NCBI GenBank assembly: GCA_946479925.1
Contig: CAMLHK010000003.1
Span: 39,059 to 103,058 of the forward strand
Direction of reading: 5' to 3'
Length of the DNA: 64,000 nt
Source of the DNA: an uncultured Lactobacillus sp.
Lineage (GTDB): Bacteria; Bacillota; Bacilli; Lactobacillales; Lactobacillaceae
Under the pieces are notes generated by a model that was not told where the DNA came from, did not search any database, and saw only the letters and a list, made by a program, of their open reading frames with translations. The translations under genes were made by a program, and so were the position numbers. Below are positions 18,411-63,301 of the stretch, piece after piece (position 1 is the stretch's first letter; every line of letters begins with the position of its first letter).

Positions 18411-18748
18411 TTAACTACCTTTTCTGATAAAAACCAAAATAACTTATAAGCATGTATTTAAAAAGTCCATATGTTTTCCCAAAGAAAATTAGTTTGTGAA
18501 ACAATTGGGTTACCTGTATAGTAATATTATTTACTATTATTTTTTGCTTATAAATATTTATATTAATAACTTTAAATCTATATTACCAGTATATCAGTTT
18601 TTTGCAATAGCTGCTTTAAAAAGTAGATTTATAATTAATATATGATTAGTAGTACTCTTTTTTAAGATTTAATCATAAAATCTGCCTAAAGCGAATACAA
18701 ATTGTTTAATAATTGATATAATAGTAAGCGTGTTTTGAGGTGATAATT
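18411..18748. other. Divergent intergenic region between marR and rqcH
   Basis: 338 bases, very AT-rich. It holds the inverted repeat at 18518-18537, a TATAAT at 18717-18722 suited to rqcH transcription, and a 6-7-6 hairpin AGATTT/AAATCT at 18665-18683. No coding frame or RNA gene was recognised. Confidence 0.6.
18518..18537. promoter_or_regulatory. Candidate MarR operator
   Basis: Inverted repeat ATAGTAA (18518-18524), spacer TATTAT, TTACTAT (18531-18537). Its size and symmetry suit a MarR dimer, and it lies in the marR/rqcH divergent region. Assignment is by position only. Confidence 0.45.
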
Positions 18749-20437
18749 ATGGCTTTTGACGGCTTATTCATACATAGTCTTTTAAATAGTGTTAAGCCAA
18801 AAATAATCAATGGTCGGCTTTCAAAAATATACCAACCATTTGAACAAGATTTAGTATTAACTTTTAGAAAAGAGCGCAAAAATATTCAGTTGTTACTATC
18901 GGCAAATGCGCAATACCCTCGGTTTTACATAACTAGCCAGACTATTGCCAATCCTGATAAGGCTCCTACTTTTGTCATGGTACTGCGCAAATATTTGGAA
19001 GGCTCAGTATTAAAGGAGATTGAACAGCTGGGTGTGGACCGCATAGTAAATTTTAATTTTAGTAATCGTAATGAGCTGGGAGATCAAGTTCAGTTAGTTT
19101 TATCTTTAGAATTAATGGGACGACATAGTAATGTCATACTTTATGATCAAAAAAGTGGACATATAATCGATTTGCTTAAACGGATTAATCCAGATGAAAA
19201 CAGAGTGCGGCTGCTTTTACCTAAAGCAAAATATGAATTACCGCCCTTAATATCTGGAATAAACGGCTTTGAAATAACAGAAAAAGAGTTTAGAGAAAAA
19301 ACTATGCATTCTGATCCAGTAGATTTTGCCAGTCAAATTGGTGGCCTGGATCGTGACGATCGTCAGGAGCTCACTGGTTATTTGGAAGATGATTTTTCTT
19401 ATTCGTCCTTTAAAACTTTTATGGATCAGTTTAATAAAAAAGGCGCTTTTATATTAAAAACGCCAAAAAATAAACGTAAGATTTTTCCCTACCTACCCTA
19501 CCATCTTAACCTGACAAAAGAAAGTGCTGATCCGGATATTAATCATGCTTTAAATGAGTTTTACGAGTATCAGTCAAATCAAGATTGGGTAAGGCAAAAG
19601 TCAGCTCAAATTGAGCGGCTAATCAAAAATGAGTACAAAAAATTAACCAAAAAAATTGTTAAGCTCAAAAAGCAGCTTGAACAGGCAGAAAATTCTGAAG
19701 GATACAGGATACAAGGAGAAATACTTAACGCAAATTTATCGCAAGTTAAGCCAGGGATGGCAGAGGTTTCTTTGCCAAATTATTATGATAATAATCGCCC
19801 ACTAAAAATTAAACTTGATGTTGCCCTTTCTCCGGCCCGTAATGCGCAGAAATATTTCACTAAATATAAAAAATTACGTGATTCTATTAAACACGTTAAA
19901 GAGCAAATATCTATTGCTCAGGATAACTTAGATTATTTTGATTCTGTTCAAACCGCAATTGATAATGCTGAACCGCAAGATATCGATCAAATTACTGAAG
20001 AGTTAATGAACCAGGGATATTTGAAGAAGCCCCAAAAACCAAAACGGAAAAAGAAAATTACCGAAAAAAATCTGAATAAATTTCGTATATCTTCGGGTAA
20101 AACTGTTTTAGTTGGCAAGAATAATTTGCAAAATGACTGGCTAACTTTAAAAAAGGCCAATAAAACTGATATTTGGTTTCATGTTAAAAATATTCCGGGC
20201 TCACACGTGATTTTGCAATCAGCTGAGGCGACAGATGAGGACATTCGAGAAACAGCTGAAATTGCCGCATATTTCTCTAAAGCTAAAAATTCTGCGCACG
20301 TACAAGTCGATTATGTTCAAGATAAACGTGTCAAAAAACCAAATGGAGCAAAACCAGGCTTTGTAATTTATACTGGTCAAAATTCAATTGAAGTAACCCC
20401 TGAAAAAACCAGGGTATTATCGAAGAGAATAAATTAG
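18749..20437 (+). CDS. rqcH: RqcH, ribosome-associated quality control factor (NFACT family)
   Basis: A 562-residue Rqc2/NEMF/FpbA homologue, often labelled fibronectin-binding protein. Characterised bacterial members bind stalled 50S subunits with peptidyl-tRNA and direct alanine tailing. The NFACT-N domain has GVDRIV with D97-R98, the pair needed for tail addition. Long coiled-coil stretches (about 280-325 and 370-400) follow, and the NFACT-R domain ends the protein (about 440-555, DIWFHVKNIPGSHVIL). The start is ATG 18749 behind GAGGTG (18737-18742); an upstream GTG is part of that ribosome site. Confidence 0.93.
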   Translation: MAFDGLFIHSLLNSVKPKIINGRLSKIYQPFEQDLVLTFRKERKNIQLLLSANAQYPRFYITSQTIANPDKAPTFVMVLRKYLEGSVLKEIEQLGVDRIVNFNFSNRNELGDQVQLVLSLELMGRHSNVILYDQKSGHIIDLLKRINPDENRVRLLLPKAKYELPPLISGINGFEITEKEFREKTMHSDPVDFASQIGGLDRDDRQELTGYLEDDFSYSSFKTFMDQFNKKGAFILKTPKNKRKIFPYLPYHLNLTKESADPDINHALNEFYEYQSNQDWVRQKSAQIERLIKNEYKKLTKKIVKLKKQLEQAENSEGYRIQGEILNANLSQVKPGMAEVSLPNYYDNNRPLKIKLDVALSPARNAQKYFTKYKKLRDSIKHVKEQISIAQDNLDYFDSVQTAIDNAEPQDIDQITEELMNQGYLKKPQKPKRKKKITEKNLNKFRISSGKTVLVGKNNLQNDWLTLKKANKTDIWFHVKNIPGSHVILQSAEATDEDIRETAEIAAYFSKAKNSAHVQVDYVQDKRVKKPNGAKPGFVIYTGQNSIEVTPEKTRVLSKRIN

Positions 20438-20470
20438 AAAACGAGGATGAAGAAATCATCCTCGCTTTTT
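20437..20470. terminator. Bidirectional terminator between rqcH and carB
   Basis: Stem CGAGGATGA (20442-20450) / TCATCCTCG (20456-20464), loop AGAAA, with a T5 run on the plus strand and a shorter T-run on the minus strand. Separates convergent rqcH and carB. Confidence 0.88.
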
Positions 20471-23400
20471 AAATCGGCTGAGTGGTTAATGATAAAGACT
20501 CTAAAACACTTAAAATAAGTTCAGTAGTTTCGATACTTGAAAACACTGGTATGTTCTGATTCAAAGCCTCATCGCGTATTCTAGTTGCATCATCACTAGC
20601 GGAATCAGATAAATTTGTAATATTTATTACCATATCAATCTTATGCTGGCGAATCTTGTCTAATAAGCTGCGAGAGCCATGACTAATTTTTGACACTATT
20701 CCAGTTGTAATACCGGCTTCTGCCAGTTCATTAGCCGTGCCCTCGGTTGCAATTATTTTAAAGCCTAACCGATAAAATCTTTGAGCCAATTCTGTAACTT
20801 TTTTCTTGTCTTCGTCGCGCACCGATATAAAAATTATTCCATAATTTGGTATTTTTAAACCACTAGCTTCATACCCTTTGTATAAGGCCTTTGCGAGTTC
20901 GGTATCCCTGCCCATAACAGAACCAGAAGACTTCATTTTAGAATCGAACGTATTTTCGCTTTGATAATTAATATAAGAAAAGACTGGCATTTTAACAAAT
21001 ATAAAGCTATTTGAACGCCATAATCCACTTTTGTATCCTAATTCAGGCAAAGACTTTCCGATTAAAACTTCAGTCGCACATTTGGTAATATCCTTACCAA
21101 GAGCCTTGGAAAGAAAAGCGATATTATGGCCGGCATAAGGCTTAATTTGTAATAAATATACTTTTTTATCAACAATTAAGAAATGTAAAGTAAAAATACC
21201 GCGCATATTTAGACGTTTAATTAATGTAATAGCAAATTCAGTTAATAATTTCTTGGCCGTTTTGGATAAGTTTTGTGGTTTAAAAACAGCTATTGAATCT
21301 GAAGCATGTGAACCTGTTTGTTCTAAGTGCTCAATGATACCTGGAAGAGTTACATTTTTTCCATCTGAAATGGCAGTTATCTCATATTTATTTCCCTCAA
21401 TAAAATGAGATAAGCTTACCTTAGAAAGCTGATTTTCTTTTAAATATTTTTTTAAGGCTGGTAAATCATAAACGACAGCCGATTTTTGCTTTACTCCCAA
21501 ATTATTAAAACCACCAATTAAAATTGGAAATCCGTGTTCTTTAATGAACTTCTGAGCAGCACTTTTATTAACAGTCGTTAGGAGTTTGTTTTGACTTAAA
21601 TTTTTTACTGGTTTATTTAACGCCTGTTTTATGCGATCTTTAGGATTAACATCCTTGTTACCTAAAATATTCAGACCGTTTTCGATAAGTTTCTTACGCA
21701 GAGCATTCATTTCTTTACCAGAAAACTGTATTAAAACATCTTTGATTTTTTCTTTCTTGGCAATTTGAAGAATACTTTCAACTGTAATTGGCTCAAAATA
21801 AACTTTAGCTACTCTTTTGTAGCTAATAGCAACTGATTCATCGTTATTTGAAAGTAAAATAATGTCATAATTATTATTATGTAAAGTATCAATTGCATGA
21901 CTGATCATGTAGTCGAATTCACTCGTAACTGACACTTGTGATGGCAGCATTCCAATTATTAAAACCTTTTTAGAGGCAGTCAAAACTCGGCTTTCGTCTT
22001 GAACTCCAAATGAACCATAATATGCTTTAACTAATGGCTTAATGGTTCCCGCAGTGCCATCAATTTGCTGGAAGGCGGGTTTTAAATGTATTTTTACAAG
22101 TCTTTTTTCAATTGCATCCACACTGATCATAGATAAGTTAGCAATTAAAAGATTACGAAACCCCCTCTTTTTGGCTTCAATTAATAATTCATCGGTTAAG
22201 TGCTCATTTACTAATTTATGACCAATTTCAACTATATGAAACAGCTTTTGGAAATATACTGGATGAATATGAACAATTTCATGTAATTCTTGATAACTAA
22301 AACCTTTTGCAATTGCAGCGAGTAGCTTAAGTAAATGTAACTCATCAGGTTGTTTTAGATCAGAAATAATTTCTGATTTATCCTTAGCTTTTTCAGTCTG
22401 CAAAACGCTTAGTGACATTTTTATATTTACTGTTGAAGCCAGACCTTTTAAAAAAGCAGATTCAAAATTTGTACCTAAACCAATAGCTTCTCCACTCGCC
22501 TGCATTCTGCTGCCTAATTTGTAATGATTGCTACCAGATTGCGTTAATGACCAAAATGGCATCCTAATGGCTACTTTGTCTAAGGTTGGTTCGATTGCAG
22601 CATTAAGTCCTGATAACGGATCTTTAATTTCATCTAAACGATAACCGAGTGCAATTTTACAAACAATATAACCCAAACTATACAGTCCTATCCTCTTAGA
22701 CCAAATAGCACTACGCGTTAGTCTGGGCTTTATCGATAAAACTTTGACAGCAAATTTAGTACCTTCGTGTTTAACGGCGAAATGTATATTAAGAATTCCT
22801 ACTATTTGCAGACTATCTGCTATTTTTTTGGCAATTGTCCGAATCCTTTGTACTTGGTCATTGTTAAGGGTCAAGGCTGGCATTACAGCCGCCGAATCAC
22901 CGGCATTAATAGCTACAGACTCAATAGTATCTGCTAGATTAGTAAAAAGTGTATTCCCTGAGCCATCACGAATAATATTGGCAATTATTTCGTCCCAAGA
23001 AGATAAGTCTTCTGCTAAGTGATAATCGCCAAACGAAAAATTTTCCAGTCGTTTTTCTTTTTGTAAATATTCGTTTAGATCAGTAATATTATTAAAAATA
23101 ATTTTTTGGTTAAGCGCTGAATCATTTTGTTTGATAAGCATCACAGGAAAGTGAACGGACTCTTCCAGTTGTTTTTGCAAATTAATTGCATCGAAATCAG
23201 TTAGATTCCAATATTTGCTGGTCTCAATCTGATTTTCTGTCAGAAAAGCGTTCATTTTTTGATGATCGTCAATTGCCAAAGTTCGTTTGTTTAAAGTTAA
23301 CAAGCGCACTCCCATTTGACTCAGAATACCATCTTGAACAAGTTCCCGGGTAACTTTTAAACCAGTAGTAGAGCCGTAAGCAGAGATAATGGCATTTGGT

Positions 23401-23645
23401 TCTTCCATGCGAATTATTCTTTTGAGAAATTCCAAGGTCATTGGTTCAAGATATACGGTTAAGCCGGGTTTTTTATCAGTAGAAATAGTTGCAGGGTTAG
23501 GATTGACTAAAATAACTTGAATATCTTCTTCAAAAAGTGCATTAATAGCGTCTTCAACTAATAAATCAGTTTCGGATACTTTACCGACTAAAGTTGGACC
23601 TGATCCGATGATTAATACTTTATCTAAATCATTATCTAAAGGCAT
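20469..23645 (-). CDS. carB: CarB-like protein: carbamoyl-phosphate synthase large subunit fold with degenerate active sites
   Basis: A 1058-residue frame collinear with CarB: ATP-grasp half 1 (1-400), oligomerisation part (400-555), ATP-grasp half 2 (555-920) and MGS-like allosteric domain (935-1058). The metal ligands are lost in both halves. E. coli Q285/E299/N301 correspond to H288/S304/K306, and Q829/E841/N843 to H821/Q833/K835. The ATP-binding RPSxxxGG loops are also gone (IKQND near 171 and IGGFNN near 710). The MGS domain stays well conserved (ISVRDEDKK, ATEGTANELAEAGI). No frameshift or stop occurs. Catalysis as a normal synthetase is unlikely; a regulatory or binding role is inference. 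Confidence 0.85.
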   Translation of the reverse strand: MPLDNDLDKVLIIGSGPTLVGKVSETDLLVEDAINALFEEDIQVILVNPNPATISTDKKPGLTVYLEPMTLEFLKRIIRMEEPNAIISAYGSTTGLKVTRELVQDGILSQMGVRLLTLNKRTLAIDDHQKMNAFLTENQIETSKYWNLTDFDAINLQKQLEESVHFPVMLIKQNDSALNQKIIFNNITDLNEYLQKEKRLENFSFGDYHLAEDLSSWDEIIANIIRDGSGNTLFTNLADTIESVAINAGDSAAVMPALTLNNDQVQRIRTIAKKIADSLQIVGILNIHFAVKHEGTKFAVKVLSIKPRLTRSAIWSKRIGLYSLGYIVCKIALGYRLDEIKDPLSGLNAAIEPTLDKVAIRMPFWSLTQSGSNHYKLGSRMQASGEAIGLGTNFESAFLKGLASTVNIKMSLSVLQTEKAKDKSEIISDLKQPDELHLLKLLAAIAKGFSYQELHEIVHIHPVYFQKLFHIVEIGHKLVNEHLTDELLIEAKKRGFRNLLIANLSMISVDAIEKRLVKIHLKPAFQQIDGTAGTIKPLVKAYYGSFGVQDESRVLTASKKVLIIGMLPSQVSVTSEFDYMISHAIDTLHNNNYDIILLSNNDESVAISYKRVAKVYFEPITVESILQIAKKEKIKDVLIQFSGKEMNALRKKLIENGLNILGNKDVNPKDRIKQALNKPVKNLSQNKLLTTVNKSAAQKFIKEHGFPILIGGFNNLGVKQKSAVVYDLPALKKYLKENQLSKVSLSHFIEGNKYEITAISDGKNVTLPGIIEHLEQTGSHASDSIAVFKPQNLSKTAKKLLTEFAITLIKRLNMRGIFTLHFLIVDKKVYLLQIKPYAGHNIAFLSKALGKDITKCATEVLIGKSLPELGYKSGLWRSNSFIFVKMPVFSYINYQSENTFDSKMKSSGSVMGRDTELAKALYKGYEASGLKIPNYGIIFISVRDEDKKKVTELAQRFYRLGFKIIATEGTANELAEAGITTGIVSKISHGSRSLLDKIRQHKIDMVINITNLSDSASDDATRIRDEALNQNIPVFSSIETTELILSVLESLSLTTQPI

Positions 23646-23647
23646 GT

Positions 23648-24703
23648 TTACACCATCATCTTTACAAAGTTATCAAAAATGGGAAGAGCATCTAGACTTC
23701 CTGGTGCTCCTTCGGCATTGAAAGCTGTACCAATTACCTTATTGGTTTTATTGCTGTAACCGGCAAGTAATTCACTGTGAAGATCGTAAAATTCTCTTTC
23801 CATTTTGAATTGAATGCTGTTTGGCAGAACCAGTTGATCAATATTCATAGCCACTTGCCAAATCTTGTTTGTATTTTGATCAATTACAGGGTAATTAATA
23901 CCATTATATGGTTGTGGTAAGTCGACAAGTTCAAAATTCAAAAAATCGCTTAATGTTAAAAACCCTAAGCCAATTCCCCAAATGGGAATTTGACCATAAA
24001 ATGCTGAAAGAATTGGTTCTAGGTCTGGCATTAATTCATTTGGCCTGCCAGGCCCTCCCGAGATGATAATTCCTTGTGGTCGCAAATTTTCAATATCGGG
24101 CACAGCAACATTATATGGTAAAACTGTAGCATTAACCTTTCTTAAAGATAATTCTCTAAGCATGGAATGCTTTAAACCAAGATCAATTATAGCTACAGTT
24201 TTCCCTACATTCGGTACTGCATAGGCATTCTTAGTAGAAACAGCTGCAGATTTGTTTTTGGGCAATACCAAGGCTTTAATTTGGTCAAAAGCGTGTTCAT
24301 CATTTGTGTCCATAATCGACGCTTTGATTGTTTTCTCCTTATTCAAAAGATGAACTAAGGCTCTGGTATCGACATTAAAAATTGCTGGTATATTTTTTTC
24401 TTTTAAAAAAGAAGCTAAATCCTGAAAGTTGCCACTTTCGGAAATATTTTGTGCAACATCATTGGCGATTATTCCTTTTACTGTCGGATTAATGCTTTCA
24501 TAGTCAATAGCATTAATACCGTTGCCACCAATCATTGGGGCAGTAAATACGAGAATTTTACCTGTATTGGTTGGGTCAGTCAGTGCTTCTTGATAACCAA
24601 AATTACCCGTTTGAATTGCTAACTCACCGGTAGAAATTATTGAAGCTCCTAATCCTTCTCCTGGAAAAGATTGACCGTTTTCCAGAATCAAATATCGTTT
24701 CAT
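23648..24703 (-). CDS. carA: CarA-like protein: carbamoyl-phosphate synthase small subunit fold without the glutaminase triad
   Basis: A 351-residue frame collinear with CarA. The N-terminal domain is recognisable (GYQEALTDPTNTGKI, GIIANDV, NVDTRALVHLL). In the class I amidotransferase domain the nucleophile elbow GICLGHQ reads GIGLGFL (Cys to Gly245), HPEA reads NAEG (His to Asn329), the conserved QNHG segment is absent, and GPGDP reads GPGRP. It therefore cannot release ammonia from glutamine by the known mechanism. It lies two bases upstream of carB, immediately after rluD, in the position where related lactobacilli carry carAB. It probably still pairs with the CarB-like protein. Confidence 0.87.
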   Translation of the reverse strand: MKRYLILENGQSFPGEGLGASIISTGELAIQTGNFGYQEALTDPTNTGKILVFTAPMIGGNGINAIDYESINPTVKGIIANDVAQNISESGNFQDLASFLKEKNIPAIFNVDTRALVHLLNKEKTIKASIMDTNDEHAFDQIKALVLPKNKSAAVSTKNAYAVPNVGKTVAIIDLGLKHSMLRELSLRKVNATVLPYNVAVPDIENLRPQGIIISGGPGRPNELMPDLEPILSAFYGQIPIWGIGLGFLTLSDFLNFELVDLPQPYNGINYPVIDQNTNKIWQVAMNIDQLVLPNSIQFKMEREFYDLHSELLAGYSNKTNKVIGTAFNAEGAPGSLDALPIFDNFVKMMV

Positions 24704-25615
24704 TTAATCACTTTTTTCTCTCAATTCAGTCAGTCTTTGCAAAAAAATTCGTGGAGGTTTTACTGCAAATTCGAGCCATTTACCAGTTGTTGGCTGTCTG
24801 AACCCTAATACTTGAGCATGCAAAAATTGACCATTTCCCTTTAAGGTATGATGCGGTCCGTATAATGGGTCCCCTGCAACAGGATGTCCAATATAAGCAA
24901 GGTGTACCCTGATTTGATGAGTCCGACCTGTTTCAAGTTGACATCTGAGTAAACTGTAATTTTGAAATTGTTCAAGAACAGTAAAATGTGTAATGGCTTC
25001 TTTGCCGTTTGCTACTACAGCCATTTTTTTACGATTATAATGATCGCGTCCAATTGGAGCTTCTATTGTTCCTTGTTTTTCAGAAAAATTGCCGTGTACT
25101 ATTGCTAAATACAGTCTTTTATTAGTTTTTGTGGCCAATTGTTCTTCTAAACTTTCACGCGCCAAAGCATTTTTGGCCACCATTAATAAACCAGATGTAT
25201 CCTTGTCAATGCGATGGACAATGCCCGGACGAAATCCTTCAGGGCTTTTAGCTAGATTTTTCGTATGAAATAATAATGCATTAACGAGTGTGTGATCTGG
25301 GTGTCCAGCAGCTGGATGGACTACCATACCCTGTGGCTTGTTAACTACTATAACGTCTTGATCTTCATAAACTATGTCTAATGGAATATCTTCTGGGACT
25401 AGAGCCAGTGGCTTTAATTTTGGAACAATAACCGTAATTAAGTCATTTTTTTGAACCTTATAGGACGACTTAACTATTTTTTGGTTAACCAGGATATTTT
25501 GATCATGGAGCAATTCCTGAATTCGCGAACGTGATAAAGAAGGAATTGCGTTTGCCAGCACTTTGTCTATTCTGCCCTTTTCATCATGGATAACAAGCTG
25601 GTATTTATTTGACAT
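24704..25615 (-). CDS. rluD: RluA-family 23S rRNA pseudouridine synthase
   Basis: A 303-residue RluD/YlyB-type enzyme that isomerises uridine to pseudouridine in rRNA. An S4-like RNA-binding domain covers about 10-70 (GRIDKVLANAIPSLSRSRIQELL). The catalytic core has GMVVHPAAGH and HRIDKDTSGLLMVAKN with the essential Asp, and later RTHQIRVHLAYIGHPV. I choose ATG 25615, which overlaps the end of lspA by 11 bases; a TTG 21 bases earlier is possible. lspA-rluD pairing is standard in Firmicutes. carA starts right at its stop codon. Confidence 0.92.
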   Translation of the reverse strand: MSNKYQLVIHDEKGRIDKVLANAIPSLSRSRIQELLHDQNILVNQKIVKSSYKVQKNDLITVIVPKLKPLALVPEDIPLDIVYEDQDVIVVNKPQGMVVHPAAGHPDHTLVNALLFHTKNLAKSPEGFRPGIVHRIDKDTSGLLMVAKNALARESLEEQLATKTNKRLYLAIVHGNFSEKQGTIEAPIGRDHYNRKKMAVVANGKEAITHFTVLEQFQNYSLLRCQLETGRTHQIRVHLAYIGHPVAGDPLYGPHHTLKGNGQFLHAQVLGFRQPTTGKWLEFAVKPPRIFLQRLTELREKSD

Positions 25616-26072
25616 CGTTTTTTTCGCTTTCGTCAAAAAAGAGTAGATAAATAAATACCAATATTATGCCAATTGTAATGGCAGAGTCAGCAATATTAAA
25701 AATATTGAAGTGAATAAAGTCAACTTGAATCATATCAATAACATACTTTAAATGAATACGGTCAACTAAATTGCCAATAATTCCGCCTAAAACCAGTGCT
25801 ACACCAGAATCAAAAAGCTTACTGTGAAAATTGTTTCGTAACAGGTAATATAAACAAATTACGATAGCGATAATACTAATCAGGTAAAAAAGTCCCATTT
25901 GACCGGGCAAAATATTCCAAGCAGCTCCGTCATTTTGTACATAAGTAAATGAAAAAACGTGGGGAATAATCTGCTGCGTTTCTCCCAGCTGGTAATTACC
26001 GGCAATAAAGGATTTCAACCCTTGATCAAGAAGTACAATAAATAATGAAATAATTAAATATAAGAATTGCAT
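25605..26072 (-). CDS. lspA: Lipoprotein signal peptidase (signal peptidase II)
   Basis: A four-helix membrane aspartyl protease of 155 residues that removes signal peptides from diacylglyceryl-modified prolipoproteins. Family blocks: LLDQGLKSFI, VQNDGAAWN, GGIIGNLVDRI, YVIDMIQVDF and FNIADSAI. The catalytic pair by alignment is D113 and D129. It starts nine bases after the fhs stop codon and overlaps rluD, so the genes are translationally linked. Confidence 0.96.
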   Translation of the reverse strand: MQFLYLIISLFIVLLDQGLKSFIAGNYQLGETQQIIPHVFSFTYVQNDGAAWNILPGQMGLFYLISIIAIVICLYYLLRNNFHSKLFDSGVALVLGGIIGNLVDRIHLKYVIDMIQVDFIHFNIFNIADSAITIGIILVFIYLLFFDESEKNDVK

Positions 26073-30732: not shown

Positions 30733-31117
30733 AATGCAAATTTCTGTAAGCCACGTTCTGTTCGGGTATTTGTGGCATAAATACCTTCAGCAGCCATCTA
30801 TCTTTGCTAAATATTAGCAATCCAATCTTTAGTTCATTTCCTTAGATTGAAACGCCCCCACCAAGTTTGGGTTGCACGCTCGCAGGGTTTACCTCGTTCC
30901 ACCAAAAGTGTTTCCACTTCTGCTTCGTCACTGTGGCACTTTTCAGAATATTCATGCATATCATTAGAATGACTTAGCACTTTTTTCGCCGTAATTAAAA
31001 TTCTTTAGCTTATTGGGCTAAATACGAACACTACAAGCATCTCAGCTCGTGCGTGCGTGGACTTTCCTCAGCCTGACCTCTTTCAGATCAAACCGCGACT
31101 GCTCAAAAATTGCACCA
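30733..31117 (-). ncRNA. rnpB: RNase P RNA, bacterial type B
   Basis: Catalytic RNA that matures tRNA 5' ends together with RnpA. Read on the minus strand it contains the 5' conserved element GAGGAAAGTCC (near 31070), GAGGTAAACCCTGCGAGCG (near 30890), and the closing P4 strand ACAGAACGTGGCTTACAG (near 30755). A promoter TTACAA-16-TATAAT lies at 31151-31124, inside the end of gpsB, giving a start near 31117. The exact 3' end is estimated, just before the terminator. Confidence 0.93.
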
Positions 31118-57936: not shown

Positions 57937-58773
57937 TTATTTACCTTCCCTTGCCTCAAAAAACTTACTGAAAAGAATGGTGTCAAAAAACCAAAACAAT
58001 ATGTTAATTATAAGCATTAATAATAATGCTATAGCTAAATCATCATTTGTACCTGTGGTTTCTCCCATCATAAACCTAAACGGAAACGAAATTATTTGTA
58101 GGCCAATACTGGCTTTGATTGCAAGCCAGGCAACTAAAATAATGACTAAAACGGCAATTATTCGAAAATAAGCTTTGCTGAGCGCTTGCGGTAGATAGTC
58201 TAAAAGTGCACGACTGGAGTAATTTAAAAAGCTGATTATGAAGTAACCAAAAAATGCGCAAAGAATAACCATCATAAGTGCACCAAAGAAATTAAACATA
58301 ATCTCTAAGTCAACTTGTTGCAAATGTCTTCCAATATCAGCAAACATTTCGATTAGGGAGTTATGAAACTGACTATCAAAAGTAAAAGTAATAACACTTA
58401 AAATTAGCGTACAGATAATTTCCAATATTACAAAGAAAAGTAAGGCAGCAAATGAACTTAAAATGTTATCAAAGTAGAACTTTTTATCATCAATTGGTAT
58501 TAAGCGCCAAGTCTGGTTACCACTCACTCTTTCATTTTGAAAACAGGTAGTTAAATAAAAGATTCCAGTGAACAGCCATGCTTGTACAATAAAAATAGCT
58601 AGCCATAATGTAAAAAAGTTAGAAAAAATTTGTCTGTTGATATAAACGTGGCCGTTATTAAAATTGAAAAAAGTCATCGCAAATGAGGCAACAGTCTGGA
58701 TAATTAGCAGAAGAGAGATCCATTTAGTTTTCAACCTAAAGAGTACGGTAAAATAACGATTAAAAATTGCCAT
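57937..58773 (-). CDS. ABC-type membrane permease, paralogue 1 (single-permease module)
   Basis: A 278-residue membrane protein with about six helices. It shares with three proteins at 59986-62597 the block GNQTWRLIPIDDKKFYFDNILSS (near 85) and SFLNYSSRALLDYLPQA (near 185). It is the last gene of a gntR-ATPase-permease unit in which each start overlaps the preceding stop (TAATG), so all three are translationally coupled. Probably the membrane half of the exporter; the substrate is unknown. Confidence 0.75.
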   Translation of the reverse strand: MAIFNRYFTVLFRLKTKWISLLLIIQTVASFAMTFFNFNNGHVYINRQIFSNFFTLWLAIFIVQAWLFTGIFYLTTCFQNERVSGNQTWRLIPIDDKKFYFDNILSSFAALLFFVILEIICTLILSVITFTFDSQFHNSLIEMFADIGRHLQQVDLEIMFNFFGALMMVILCAFFGYFIISFLNYSSRALLDYLPQALSKAYFRIIAVLVIILVAWLAIKASIGLQIISFPFRFMMGETTGTNDDLAIALLLMLIINILFWFFDTILFSKFFEAREGK

Positions 58774-59480
58774 TATTCCTCCTCCTCTCTCTGGTAAAAG
58801 CTTTCATAAAAATCTTCTACTGTCTGGTTATCCGCTCTAATCTCTTCAGTTGATTTATGCATGCAAATTGTCTTATTTTTGATAATGACAACTTCATCGA
58901 GAACGGCCGCAATTTCATTGACAAAATGGTCAGAAATTAGAATTGTGGACTTTTCCTGCTTCCATAAGATGATCGATTTGATAATTTTTTTACGAGCCAT
59001 AGCATCAATTCCGGAAAAGGGCTCATCCAGAAGATACAAGTCCGTTTTTCTGGAAAAAGTTAACGCAATAACCAACTTCTCTTTCATACCCTTTGATAAT
59101 TCAGATAAGCGCAGATCAGAAGCTAAATTCATGAATTTTCTTAACTGCTCAAATTGTTTTAGACTAAAATCATGGTATAAAATTTGGTAAAACTTGACGA
59201 TTTCATTAATTTTAACAGAGTTAGAAAATCCAGTTAAGCCATCAGTAAAAGAAAGATGCTCTTTTCTGTCAGCCTCTTTAGTAAAACCAGCAACTTTAAC
59301 AGTACCATGGTAATTTTTGGCAACTCCGCTGATAATTCTCATTAAAGTGGTTTTACCCGCACCGTTTTCGCCCAAAAGAGCGACAATTTTTCCCGGTTTG
59401 AGTGTTAAATTTAAATCAGTAATAATTTTTTTCTGGTTCTTTTTGTAAACCAAATCGGTTATTTCTAAAGGGTTTGCCAT
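58773..59480 (-). CDS. ABC transporter ATP-binding protein (single-permease module)
   Basis: A 235-residue ABC ATPase: Walker A LLGENGAGKTTLM (near 34), signature region LRLSELSKGMKEKLVIALTFSR (LSKGM in place of LSGGQ), Walker B DLYLLDEPFSGIDAMARK and H-loop ILISDHFVNE. The LSKGMKEKL signature is typical of YtrB/EcsA-like ATPases next to GntR regulators. It is closely similar to the ATPase at 62597. Start and stop overlap with its neighbours by one base. Confidence 0.92.
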   Translation of the reverse strand: MANPLEITDLVYKKNQKKIITDLNLTLKPGKIVALLGENGAGKTTLMRIISGVAKNYHGTVKVAGFTKEADRKEHLSFTDGLTGFSNSVKINEIVKFYQILYHDFSLKQFEQLRKFMNLASDLRLSELSKGMKEKLVIALTFSRKTDLYLLDEPFSGIDAMARKKIIKSIILWKQEKSTILISDHFVNEIAAVLDEVVIIKNKTICMHKSTEEIRADNQTVEDFYESFYQREEEE

Positions 59481-59845
59481 TATTCACGCTCCTCTTTAAG
59501 ATATTCAGATAAAGATATGAGAATTTGTTCGTCAGATACTCCTAAAGAATTCATACTATGTACAAACTTATCTAGTTCCGCATTAATTAGTTCCCTTTTT
59601 GTTTTATCAAGTAAAGTAGTATCTTCAGTGACAAAATTACCTTCTCCCCTCTTGGTGTACAAAATACCTTCAAAATTCATCTGTTGTAAAGCACGTTGCA
59701 CCGTGTTGACATTAACAGTGAGTTGCACTGCCAGTTCACGTACAGAAGGGATTTTTTTACCTGGCTTTAATTTACCGGTAATTATTTGTCGATATAGGTA
59801 TTGCTTAATTTGTAAGTAAATGGGAATGTTATCTTTAAATTCCAC
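59480..59845 (-). CDS. GntR-family regulator, YtrA type (single-permease module)
   Basis: A 121-residue regulator. The winged helix (about 1-70) reads IYLQIKQYLYRQIITGKLKPGKKIPSVRELAVQLTVNVNTVQRALQQM, and a short helical dimerisation tail follows, as in YtrA proteins that repress their own ABC operon in response to cell-envelope stress. It is similar in sequence to the regulator at 63311. A shared 13-bp motif lies 30-43 bases before its start codon. Confidence 0.92.
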   Translation of the reverse strand: MEFKDNIPIYLQIKQYLYRQIITGKLKPGKKIPSVRELAVQLTVNVNTVQRALQQMNFEGILYTKRGEGNFVTEDTTLLDKTKRELINAELDKFVHSMNSLGVSDEQILISLSEYLKEERE

Positions 59846-59875
59846 AAGTCCACCATCCTTTGGCCGTAATACACC

Positions 59876-59888
59876 TATAATACACTAT
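59876..59888. promoter_or_regulatory. GntR operator motif (single-permease module)
   Basis: TATAATACACTAT, identical to 63690-63702 upstream of the other GntR gene. The octamer TAATACAC is also repeated directly just before it (from 59867), giving two spaced copies. Candidate YtrA-type autoregulatory operator. Confidence 0.5.
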
Positions 59889-59985
59889 CATAAACTAGAT
59901 TGATTTTTTCCGCAAACCTTTTAACATTTGTAGTTAAACTACTTTTTGTAAATAGTTGGTAAGTTTCTACTTTTTATTAGTAACC

Positions 59986-60825
59986 CTACTTATGTTCAGT
60001 TGCTTCATAAAAATGATTGATTAGGAAAATATTGCTGCTCAATAAAATAAGATCGCTAATTGCGTTTGCCAAAATTGCAAAAGGTAAACTACTAGAAAGA
60101 TTAAGTCCATAATTAGTCGGATGAATCACTGATAAAAGAACTTGGTAAACAAAGATATTTTGAATTTTAAAGAAAAACCAGATTAAGCCGAAGATTATGA
60201 CTATGTGTAATACTTTCACAACTGCGCCATTAATGTTTGCAGGGACAAAATCTAGTATTGCGCGGCTGGCAAAATTAAAGAAACTGATAACAAAATATAA
60301 AAAGAAACAACTTAAAATAGCTAAAACGATCGTACCAAGTATTATCCAGAATACATTAATGTCAAGAGTGCGTTGAATGCTTTTTAATAAATCGCGGAAA
60401 AAGTATACAACAGGCTTGTCGGTCAGATACGATGAAAACAGTAATATCATTACTGTGACGAATTCAAGTACAATAAAGTAAATAAAAGATACGAACGTGC
60501 TTAATACATTAACAAGATAAAATTGCCCATCGCTTATGGCTGCTAAGCGCCAAGTTTGACTGCGGTTAAATTTCTCGCTCTGTAATGGCGTAATAAAATA
60601 AACGAAAAATATGACAAAAAAGGCCAAGAAGACAAAATATAATGCCCATTCCGGTAAAATTCCGACATTGTTTTGGGGATTTTTGCGGATATGCCAATTT
60701 ATCACTTCATAATAAGTAAAAAAGGCACATACAAGAGCTGCAATTATCTGGAAAAAAAGTAATATGTGTAATTTTTTAATTTTAATTTTAAATAGTCTAT
60801 TAAATAATCTGCTAAATTCTGTCAT
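59986..60825 (-). CDS. ABC-type membrane permease, paralogue 2
   Basis: A 279-residue protein with about six helices, sharing the blocks FNRSQTWRLAAISDGQFYLVNVLS and SFFNFASRAILDFVPA with its three paralogues. I start at ATG 60825 because AAGGGG precedes it and the N-terminus then aligns (MTEFSRLFNRLFK against MTSFKNLFGRFF). It is the last of three tandem permease genes behind the upstream ATPase. Confidence 0.75.
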   Translation of the reverse strand: MTEFSRLFNRLFKIKIKKLHILLFFQIIAALVCAFFTYYEVINWHIRKNPQNNVGILPEWALYFVFLAFFVIFFVYFITPLQSEKFNRSQTWRLAAISDGQFYLVNVLSTFVSFIYFIVLEFVTVMILLFSSYLTDKPVVYFFRDLLKSIQRTLDINVFWIILGTIVLAILSCFFLYFVISFFNFASRAILDFVPANINGAVVKVLHIVIIFGLIWFFFKIQNIFVYQVLLSVIHPTNYGLNLSSSLPFAILANAISDLILLSSNIFLINHFYEATEHK

Positions 60826-60902
60826 TTGGGACCCCTTATTTTTTATTTTTGCTCGATGACAAATTGTCACTGATATAAATTGGTACTATGCCTCTACTTT
60901 AT

Positions 60903-61730
60903 TTACTCTGCTTCAAAGAAATACTTAAATAAACAGATATTAATAACGTACATTATTAAATTAACAACTACAACAATTAAATTAAGATAGGGTAAAGTGT
61001 TGTTGTAAGCCGGATTTAAGTTTAAAAAATGCAAAAGGCTGCCTAAAAATTGGTCGACAAAAATTTTTTCTACTTTGGTAAAAAGCCAGGCTATTACGAT
61101 AACAATAAAAATATGTAATAGTTTGACAATTAATCCGTTTGAAGCTACAGGAAGATAATCCATGATCGCTTTACTGGAAAAATTTAAAAAGCTGATCAAT
61201 AACGAAATGAAAAGGCAACATAAAAGTAAGAGTAACATGATATCAAAAATTAAACGAATTGTATTCAGATCAAAATTTGGTCTAAATTGCTTAAACATTC
61301 TTTCGCATGATTTACGAAAAGCCTTGTCCATAAAAAATGAAACAATTAGTAAGATCCCTGCAACAATAATGTCAAGAAAAATGAAATAGAAAAAAGTAAT
61401 AAACGAGCTTAAACTATTAGCAATATAAAATTTTTCATCAGTGATTGCAGTTAAACGCCAAGTTTGACTCCGATTAATTCGCTCATTTTTGACAGCCATA
61501 TAAATAAAAAAGAAAATGATAAAAAAGACATTCAATAGACAAAAACCCGTTAGCCAATCAGGTAAAAGTTCAGTGTAAAGATTTAAAAATTCACCAAACT
61601 CACCTGTACCAATCAGCAGCCCAAAAACAGAAAATGCTAAGGCACCAACTAATTGTATAATTAAAAATGAATAAACTTTCTTGGCTTTTTCTACAAAGAA
61701 TCTGCCAAACAAATTTTTAAAAGATGTCAT
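60903..61730 (-). CDS. ABC-type membrane permease, paralogue 3
   Basis: A 275-residue protein with about six helices. Shared blocks: INRSQTWRLTAITDEKFYIANSLSS and SFLNFSSKAIMDYLPVA. AAAGGA precedes the ATG. It is the middle gene of the three-permease run. The upstream spacer (61731-61787) carries a tandem 14-bp repeat. Confidence 0.75.
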   Translation of the reverse strand: MTSFKNLFGRFFVEKAKKVYSFLIIQLVGALAFSVFGLLIGTGEFGEFLNLYTELLPDWLTGFCLLNVFFIIFFFIYMAVKNERINRSQTWRLTAITDEKFYIANSLSSFITFFYFIFLDIIVAGILLIVSFFMDKAFRKSCERMFKQFRPNFDLNTIRLIFDIMLLLLLCCLFISLLISFLNFSSKAIMDYLPVASNGLIVKLLHIFIVIVIAWLFTKVEKIFVDQFLGSLLHFLNLNPAYNNTLPYLNLIVVVVNLIMYVINICLFKYFFEAE

Positions 61731-61748
61731 GCTTTTCCTTTCTGCTAT

Positions 61749-61776
61749 GAAAATATTGAAACGAAAATATTGAAAC
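61749..61776. repeat. Perfect 14-bp tandem duplication
   Basis: GAAAATATTGAAAC occurs twice head to tail (61749-61762 and 61763-61776) in the spacer between permease paralogues 4 and 3. Confidence 0.9.
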
Positions 61777-61787
61777 AGTATTAGGTT

Positions 61788-62597
61788 TTACTTCTCTCCT
61801 GCTTCAAAAAAGTGATTGATTAAGAAGACGTTAATGCCAAGTATTATTAAATCAATAATAAACATCATTAATACCACTGATTCCAATCCCGCAAGACCTG
61901 TAGATCTTAGTAAAAGTATATTGATAATATAGTTTGCAAAGACACTATAGAGCCTAACTAGTAATCCTACCAAGACGATAATTATAAATATGCGCACAAA
62001 AGAAATTAGAATATGACTTGATGCATGTGGTAAAAAGTCTAAGATTGCTTGACTGGAAAAGTTAAGAAAACTAACCAAAAAGTAAAGAAAAAGACAAGTA
62101 AAAATTAGTAGTAACATAATGCCAATAAAATCAAAAATTGCAGTACTGTTTAAATCAACTTCAAACTGTAAATTTTTGCCAAATTTAGAATTAGTAAATA
62201 TTGATAAAAATAAAAAACAAATTGCAATTAACACATCTAAGAGCACAAAATAAACCAATGAAACAAATGAACTTAAGATATTGGCAACATAAAACTTGCC
62301 ATCACTGATTGGTGCTAAACGCCAGGTTTGATTTCTATTTAACCGTTCATTTTCAACTACAGTTAAAATGAACAAAATCGGTCCGAACAAGAAAGTTAAT
62401 GATGCAAACAGTGCCATCCATCCTGGTAAAAACTCGAGATTATTGTTCGAATTAAAGTGAAATCTGCCAGAATAAAAACTAAAATAAGTAAAGAATGCTG
62501 AAGCTAGAGAACTAATGAATTGCAGAATAACTAAAAGATAAACATTTTTGACTTTTTTCTGCAGTAACTTTTCAAACAAATGATTGAAAACGTTCAT
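61788..62597 (-). CDS. ABC-type membrane permease, paralogue 4
   Basis: A 269-residue protein with about six helices. Shared blocks: LNRNQTWRLAPISDGKFYVANILSS and SFLNFSSQAILDFLPHA. It overlaps the ATPase stop by one base (TAATG), so it is the permease directly coupled to the ATPase at 62597. The two paralogues downstream may be alternative or additional membrane subunits. Confidence 0.77.
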   Translation of the reverse strand: MNVFNHLFEKLLQKKVKNVYLLVILQFISSLASAFFTYFSFYSGRFHFNSNNNLEFLPGWMALFASLTFLFGPILFILTVVENERLNRNQTWRLAPISDGKFYVANILSSFVSLVYFVLLDVLIAICFLFLSIFTNSKFGKNLQFEVDLNSTAIFDFIGIMLLLIFTCLFLYFLVSFLNFSSQAILDFLPHASSHILISFVRIFIIIVLVGLLVRLYSVFANYIINILLLRSTGLAGLESVVLMMFIIDLIILGINVFLINHFFEAGEK

Positions 62598-63301
62598 TAT
62601 TCCTCCTCCGCATCGTATAAACCTTCATAATAATCTTCAACACTTTTATGATGTTCGCGGATTTCCTCAGTAGATTTGTGCGTGTAAATAGTTTTATCTT
62701 TGATAATAACGATTTCGTCAAGCATACTGGCTATTTCGTTGACAAAATGATCTGAAACAAGAATCGTTGAATTTTCCGGTTTCCATAAAATGATCGAATT
62801 AATTATTTTTTTGCGCGCCATGGCATCAATCCCCGAAAAGGGCTCGTCTAATAAATAAAGGTCAACTTCGCGCGAAAATGCCAGGGCAATGATTAACTTT
62901 TCTTTCATTCCTTTGGACATTTCAGATAAGCGCATCTCTGAATCTAATTTCATAAACTGACGCAACTGTTCAAATTGATTTTGATCAAAATCTTGATAGA
63001 TGACCTTATAAAATTTAACAATTTCTTTGATTTTCGTTGAATTAGCAAAACCCGTTAATCCATCAGTAAAAGACAGATGTGCTTTTCTTTCTGCAACATT
63101 ATTCTCGCCTGATATATTAACTGTCCCGTGATAGTTTTTGGCCATGCCACTGATGATGCGCATTAAAGTTGTCTTCCCAGCACCATTCTCACCTAGAAGG
63201 GCTACAATTTTTCCCGGTTGTAAATTTAAATTGATATTATCCAAAATTGTTTTTAAATTTTTCTTGTAAGTTAGATCTCTTATTTCCAATAGATTTTCCA
63301 T
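62597..63301 (-). CDS. ABC transporter ATP-binding protein (three-permease module)
   Basis: A 234-residue ABC ATPase with Walker A LLGENGAGKTTLM, signature LSEMSKGMKEKLIIALAFSR, Walker B DLYLLDEPFSGIDAMARK and H-loop ILVSDHFVNE. It is a clear paralogue of the ATPase at 58773, with whole blocks identical (KIVALLGENGAGKTTLMRI, AHLSFTDGLTGFANS). It follows the GntR gene by nine bases. Confidence 0.92.
   Translation of the reverse strand: MENLLEIRDLTYKKNLKTILDNINLNLQPGKIVALLGENGAGKTTLMRIISGMAKNYHGTVNISGENNVAERKAHLSFTDGLTGFANSTKIKEIVKFYKVIYQDFDQNQFEQLRQFMKLDSEMRLSEMSKGMKEKLIIALAFSREVDLYLLDEPFSGIDAMARKKIINSIILWKPENSTILVSDHFVNEIASMLDEIVIIKDKTIYTHKSTEEIREHHKSVEDYYEGLYDAEEE

Follow-up and report, generated by a model that had tools for sequence, protein, structure and literature searches.

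A conserved CarA-CarB pair of Lactobacillus has lost the catalytic residues of carbamoyl-phosphate synthetase and may be kept as a ligand-binding pseudoenzyme

The DNA considered here (the window) is a stretch of 64,000 nucleotides from an uncultured, L. melliventris-like Lactobacillus sp. (assembly GCA_946479925.1, contig CAMLHK010000003.1, positions 39,059 to 103,058 of the forward strand), and the subject of this work is a pair of adjacent genes within it, carA and carB, related to those for the small and large subunits of carbamoyl-phosphate synthetase (CPS). Compared with Escherichia coli CarA and CarB, the pair has the same two subunits, domain order and gene order, but it differs from canonical CPS in lacking the glutaminase nucleophile, the metal ligands of the ATP-grasp sites and the phosphate loops, and it is referred to below as the dead pair. 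The closest solved structures by sequence were E. coli CPS and mitochondrial CPS for the window CarB, and the window CarA also matched E. coli CPS (PDB). Coordinates are collected in Table 1, in which rluD, lspA and rqcH are the names that we presume to fit the neighbouring genes. In the window carA directly follows rluD, and none of pyrR, uraA, pyrB, pyrC, pyrD, pyrF and pyrE was found at this locus. A preliminary description of this DNA, made from the sequence alone, had reported an intact frame of 1058 codons for CarB, and this was correct; the frame lies on the minus strand, which had not been stated. The dead CarA, the canonical carAB of the same genome, the history of the locus and the presence of dead pairs in many other genera, all described below, go beyond that description.

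Table 1. Features of the dead pair and of its immediate surroundings in the window (E. coli residue numbers unless codons or CarB residues of the window are named)
Feature	Position	Strand	Remarks
CarB-like large subunit	20469-23645	minus	1058 codons, open; two pre-ATP-grasp/ATP-grasp halves, oligomerisation domain and MGS all present (Pfam)
Former carboxyphosphate (N-half) site, CarB residues 128-311	22713-23264	minus	R129H, R169I, G175A, G176L, H243N, Q285H, E299S, N301K; retained: E215, R303, R306
Former carbamoyl-phosphate (C-half) site, CarB residues 711-840	21126-21515	minus	R715G, E761K, Q829H, E841Q, N843K, R845Y, R848H
MGS-like domain, CarB residues 950-1035	20541-20798	minus	Pfam PF02142 match; equivalents of K954, T974, T977, K993 and N1015 retained
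CarA-like small subunit, 351 aa	23648-24703	minus	glutaminase Cys and His lost; 2 bases upstream of carB
CarA codon 245, Gly (E. coli nucleophile Cys269)	23969-23971	minus	from alignment
CarA codon 329, Asn (E. coli His353)	23717-23719	minus	from alignment
rluD-like pseudouridine synthase	24704-25636	minus	stop codon directly abuts carA start
lspA-like signal peptidase II, upstream neighbour	25605-26072	minus	overlaps the rluD frame as listed
rqcH-like NFACT protein, downstream and convergent	18740-20437	plus	marks the site of the old pyr operon

Residues were numbered from an alignment with E. coli K-12 CarB, and E. coli CarA numbering was used for the small subunit. We take Cys269 and His353 of CarA to be the glutaminase residues, and Q285/E299/N301 and Q829/E841/N843 of CarB to be the metal ligands of its two halves, in line with the E. 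coli CPS literature; the lists of N-half, C-half and MGS site residues likewise follow the E. coli structures. In the window CarB the first set of ligands was replaced by H288/S304/K306 and the second by H821/Q833/K835, which agreed to the residue with the preliminary description, and the loss of the nucleotide loops that it had noted was found at every position checked (R169 to I, G175 to A, G176 to L, R715 to G, G721 to V and G722 to K). To see how general these changes were, a residue table was drawn up from 43 CarB rows (the window copy, 39 further copies from the genus and 3 from sister genera) and 42 CarA rows; L001-L004 and L028 were dropped beforehand as partial duplicates and the second copy of a broken locus, of which the longer piece was kept as L079. 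The CarA substitutions C269G, H353N and Q273L were each present in 42/42 rows, so that by known chemistry the small subunit would not release ammonia from glutamine. With the catalytic residues of CarB replaced and the adjacent CarA also dead, a carbamoyl-phosphate synthetase role for the pair is very unlikely on the sequence data, as had been argued before from CarB. NCBIfam models were divided: the window pair scored above the cut-offs of NF003671 (667 bits against 599) and NF009475 (400 against 221) and below those of TIGR01369 (644 against 1027) and TIGR01368 (245 against 307).

The replacement residues were themselves conserved in the C-half of CarB. R715G and E761K were found in 43/43 rows and Q829H, E841Q, N843K, R845Y and R848H in 42/42, whereas the N-half states were looser: of 42 rows, 40 had H at Q285, 33 had K at N301 and 22 had S at E299. 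The preliminary description was right that Q-to-H and N-to-K changes run parallel in the two halves, but only the C-half site is frozen as it now stands; that of the N-half for the most part drifts. Invariant columns were then counted in 39 near-full-length rows and compared by Fisher test, with L053 (the dead copy of genome G092) excluded from the canonical set. The site columns of the C-half (R571 included) were more often invariant than the rest of that half (11/15 against 78/356, p 5e-5), and those of the MGS domain more often than the background of that domain (7/8 against 29/120, p 6e-4); the N-half site columns were not above background (3/13 against 63/383, p 0.37). Since the C-half states are fixed over the 43 CarB rows and the C-half site columns are invariant above background, these replacements are not the product of chance. 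The residues that we take to form the MGS site for uridine or inosine monophosphate (UMP/IMP) were kept in almost every ungapped row (K954 in 41/41, T974, T977 and K993 in 40/40 each, N1015 in 40/41).

Across 12 genomes with both copies, identity among dead and among canonical CarBs was 0.615 and 0.912 for the N-half, 0.472 and 0.740 for the oligomerisation domain, 0.647 and 0.860 for the C-half and 0.736 and 0.738 for the MGS domain; for CarA the corresponding values were 0.808 and 0.777 (N-domain) and 0.693 and 0.802 (GATase domain). L053, although placed among the 31 canonical rows of the residue table, was left out of the all-canonical figure. The MGS domain is thus the best-conserved domain of dead CarB and one of the two least conserved in canonical CarB, in keeping with the earlier remark that it is well conserved. 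Over 11 common species pairs the median ratio of nonsynonymous to synonymous substitution rates (dN/dS) was 0.061 for carB and 0.035 for carA, compared with 0.052 for rluD, 0.042 for rqcH and 0.034 for fhs. For carB it lay between 0.02 and 0.07 in near pairs, carA was similar, and both resembled the housekeeping neighbours. In a second run, five further carB pairs, three of them from the L. johnsonii group, gave 0.020-0.056, and 24 carA pairs had a median of 0.020. The check on orthologues that the preliminary description had proposed thus speaks against neutral decay and, together with the fixed new residues, for its suggestion of selection for a retained function; the pair is under strong purifying selection.

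The dead pair proved to be a regular feature of the genus. A window-type carB was found in all 36 other same-genus genomes searched (two copies were cut by contig ends and one frame was split), and the altered carA adjoined it in 35/36, the contig of G032 ending before carA. In 56 named loci the dead carB was full-length and open in 52, cut by a contig end in 3 and split in 1; they include L. melliventris, kullabergensis, helsingborgensis, apis, acetotolerans, gallinarum, kefiranofaciens, johnsonii, jensenii, delbrueckii and equicursoris as well as Holzapfeliella floricola, and the absence of a species from this list means little because the scan was pattern-based. In 53/56 named loci rluD lay upstream of the dead carA, the remaining three being cut, and most Lactobacillus loci with flanks had no gene-sized gap between rluD and carA; L. 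corticis has one gene between them. The sole split frame among window-type carBs, in a draft of L. hamsteri (L098/L079), may be a draft error. The same locus in full synteny was also seen in a record named Faecalicatena absiana (L122, JAEDAG010000004.1), which is probably mislabelled or contaminated.

A second, canonical carAB, for which the preliminary description had advised a search, is present in the window's own genome (an assembly 68% complete), on contig C8 with pyrR, pyrB, pyrC, carA, carB, pyrD, pyrF and pyrE. Its CarB scored 1547 bits with TIGR01369 and had kept every site residue checked. When 28 same-genus genomes at least 95% complete were counted by hand, 19 had a full-length canonical carB and nine did not (G002, G003, G005, G009, G010, G013, G014, G021 and G026, with fragments in G010 and G014). 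In eight of these nine pyrB over the family cut-off was missing as well, G010 having one, and yet the dead pair was kept in all nine (in G021 with a split carB frame). The dead pair is not needed for pyrimidine synthesis. In G011, G012, G016 and G031 a second pyrR, or pieces of one, immediately adjoins the canonical carB; in G031 there are apparently two such pieces. In a transcriptome report on L. acetotolerans, carB (LBAT_0598) was clustered with pyrB, pyrC and carA (PMC5453994); we take this gene to be the canonical copy and not the dead one.

Dead pairs are also widespread in the rest of the family. In a hand count of 79 Lactobacillaceae genomes of other genera (none of genus g1), 51 had a CarB that fell short of the TIGR01369 cut-off. 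For 48 of these the locus was read within this survey, and the other three (G086, G099 and G123) were of the window type and were read as L039/L155, L040/L132 and L041. CarA had Gly269 in 48/48 of the outside loci and His353 in none. They also shared their surroundings, with rluD upstream in 47/48 (it was not found in the L201 stretch), rqcH converging from downstream in 28/48 (the flank being short in some) and pyrR upstream of the dead carAB in 41/48, with uraA as well in five. In L207 and L208 (genus g39) every N-half residue checked was intact and the C-half was lost. Two further genomes had dead CarBs scoring above the cut-off, both in the gene order uraA-carA-carB-rqcH. That of G092 (L156) carried E299A, N301K, E761K, E841A, N843K and R845Y beside a CarA with the Cys kept and H353L and E355N; that of G069 (L148) carried Q285H, E299A, Q829K, E841A and R845N beside a CarA with C269G and H353D, and in G069 a cluster of pyr genes (L167) holds a canonical carAB in addition. 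For the remaining surveyed genomes (28 less G092 and G069) the search at E <= 1e-100 yielded either nothing or only a CarB that passed the cut-off. Outside the family, a sample of the order had sub-cut-off CarBs at E <= 1e-100 in 0/70 genomes (50 with one above the cut-off, 20 with none), a sample blind to dead copies that score above it.

The position between rluD and rqcH gave an indication of where the pair came from. In genera g43, g51 and g29 (L157, L161, L162, L166 and L168) this site holds a whole pyr operon, with canonical CPS residues in those loci that were checked (L157, L161 and L166). Compared with the Lactobacillaceae pyr operon (pyrR-uraA-pyrB-pyrC-carA-carB-pyrD-pyrF-pyrE), the dead pair occupies the same rluD-rqcH site, and of that operon the window site has only carA-carB. 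Stepwise layouts lie between the two: Holzapfeliella (L132) has pyrR-uraA-carA-carB and g45 (L155) uraA-carA-carB, with both car genes dead, and Lactobacillus has the dead carA-carB. A PyrR-binding leader precedes the operons of both L132 and L155; it reached the gathering score in 4/7 loci (L005, L132, L155 and L161), but not in L157, L166 and L194 or in any of the eight loci of a second scan. Judged by this locus history, the dead pair is a descendant of the carAB of a pyr operon at the rluD-rqcH site.

The number of origins was less easily settled. In a CarA tree of 95 rows the Gly269 CarAs fell in two clades, but in a thinned tree of 66 of these rows, from which L240 and 28 of 43 truncated CarAs were dropped, they fell in one (support 91, not starred), and adding G092 to this single clade was not rejected (p-AU 0.174). 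In a CarB tree of 62 loci and E. coli the window-type proteins formed a single clade (20 rows, support 100), and G092 and G069 grouped together apart from it (support 99, both on long branches). Whether the Cys-to-Gly CarAs appear to have one origin or several thus depends on taxon sampling.

The best explanation of these results, and in our view probably the right one, is a retired CPS pair that persists as a regulatory pseudoenzyme able to bind ligands. Pseudoenzymes that keep ligand binding without catalysis, such as the pseudokinases, have counterparts here in the invariant loss of catalytic and metal-binding residues, the intact frame and the purifying selection; it is this combination, of catalytic residues lost with frame and selection kept, that would be looked for in a regulatory pseudoenzyme. 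The pair, derived from the carAB of the pyr operon, has lost the residues for the glutaminase and both ATP-dependent steps. In Lactobacillus, the intact MGS domain would bind a nucleotide of the UMP/IMP type and the former carbamoyl-phosphate pocket, rebuilt with Lys and His, would bind metabolites, in both cases without turnover, as the special constraint on the MGS domain and the rebuilt C-half pocket points to. CarA and CarB would presumably form a complex, and a ligand-driven change of shape could then be passed as a signal to a partner protein, which in Lactobacillus may be other than PyrR because the pair outlives both pyrimidine biosynthesis and PyrR.

Several observations weigh against this explanation. 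Outside the genus 43/48 CarBs were only 643-857 residues long, apparently without the MGS domain, and 5 were full length, a count that rests on CarB length and alignment and with which Pfam agreed for the one protein checked (L191). If all dead pairs share one role, nucleotide sensing through the MGS domain, as proposed in the preliminary description, cannot be the role for the whole family, and we have given it up as a universal function. Single departures from the fixed states were seen outside the residue-table rows (His at R571 in L129, Phe at R845 in L115 and Asn at Q829 in L133). Within the genus the canonical copies may have arisen later than the dead ones, so that only the order of domains within each protein, and not the absolute identities, can be compared. 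The 11 dN/dS pairs all come from species closely related to that of the window and are non-independent, and four carA pairs with dS of about 1.1-1.2 gave dN/dS of 0.12-0.25, a poor estimate near saturation. Lastly, among the 28 near-complete genomes G003, G005 and G009 had no PyrR match at E <= 1e-10 and yet keep the pair, which leaves it in them without a known pyr regulator.

That the genes are merely decaying and not yet broken is scarcely credible: one frame is split, in the L. hamsteri draft, but once the copies truncated by contig ends are set aside, 52/53 named carBs have an open frame of full length, and on these open frames, the low dN/dS and the fixed replacements plain decay was rejected. 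Nor does it seem at all probable that the pair serves as a regulatory or structural subunit of canonical CPS in mixed oligomers. Both copies do occur in the window's genome and the oligomerisation domain is still recognisable, but this is the least conserved domain of dead CarB, and 9/28 near-complete genomes keep the dead pair without an intact canonical carB. A new enzyme, in which the C-half would catalyse some other reaction by means of the fixed His/Gln/Lys/Tyr/His residues, is a more serious contender, as the replacement residues are invariant in the manner of catalytic ones (42/42) and the C-half site columns stand above background; it is unlikely nonetheless, given that neither half retains the ATP-grasp metal ligands and that the glutaminase nucleophile is missing from CarA. 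Moreover, in the relatives from other genera the replacements differ and the C-half is mostly shortened, so that no common alternative active site is seen.

The remaining alternative, which we regard as doubtful, is an ancestral family role as a sensor that binds bicarbonate and a nucleotide and thereby controls how the PyrR encoded beside it acts on pyrimidine genes. Bicarbonate is a substrate of CPS, the N-half residues checked are all kept in L207 and L208 where the C-half is lost, pyrR stands upstream of the dead carAB in most outside loci, and a PyrR-binding leader lies before the dead-pair operons of L155 and L132. However, 7/48 outside loci have no pyrR, no leader reached the gathering score in L194 or the eight loci of the second scan, and Lactobacillus no longer has pyrR at the site, 3/28 near-complete genomes being without any PyrR match. 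We know of no interaction between a dead CPS and PyrR. In L. plantarum, according to PMC3582564, PyrR2 acts in the response to inorganic carbon; by comparison, pyrR is found at 41/48 outside dead loci and is absent from the window locus. This role and the pyrR neighbourhood outside the genus suggest, as a lead only, an ancestral link of the pair to the sensing of bicarbonate or pyrimidines, and the equation of L. plantarum pyrR2, listed as lp_1782 in PMC7911632, with the pyrR of dead loci is likewise a lead only.

Elsewhere in the window, positions 57937-63301 contain in a row two similar ABC-type ATPase frames (58773-59480 and 62597-63301), a GntR-type regulator (59480-59845) and a number of membrane proteins related to one another; the row is apparently a local duplication. 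An Rfam scan of the whole window matched RNase P alone, as a class B RNA at 30742-31110 (minus).

No report of a dead CPS pair was present among the matches listed in a search of literature titles and abstract openings, the original PyrR2 papers being outside its scope, and nothing on it was found in the available parts of PMC7911632, PMC5712122 and PMC9963975. Because the dead pair scores as carA/carB under permissive annotation models, lactobacilli, likely pyrimidine auxotrophs among them, may be assigned a CPS in metabolic reconstructions although this pair cannot act as one. Should the pair be a sensor, an allosteric enzyme of the textbooks would have been turned into a pure receptor, with apparent intermediates still alive: g39 (L207 and L208) with the N-half intact and the C-half lost, G092 with the CarA Cys kept, and many genera in which the MGS domain is apparently lost. 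Lactobacillar CO2 sensing for pyrimidine control would then become directly testable. More speculatively, and with a probability that we would put low, most Lactobacillaceae genera may carry a retired CPS as a dedicated metabolite sensor. It would ancestrally have worked with PyrR in reading bicarbonate and pyrimidine state, would supply the sensor so far missing from the published CO2-responsive pyrimidine control, and in Lactobacillus would have shed its tie to PyrR and been remodelled about the MGS domain.

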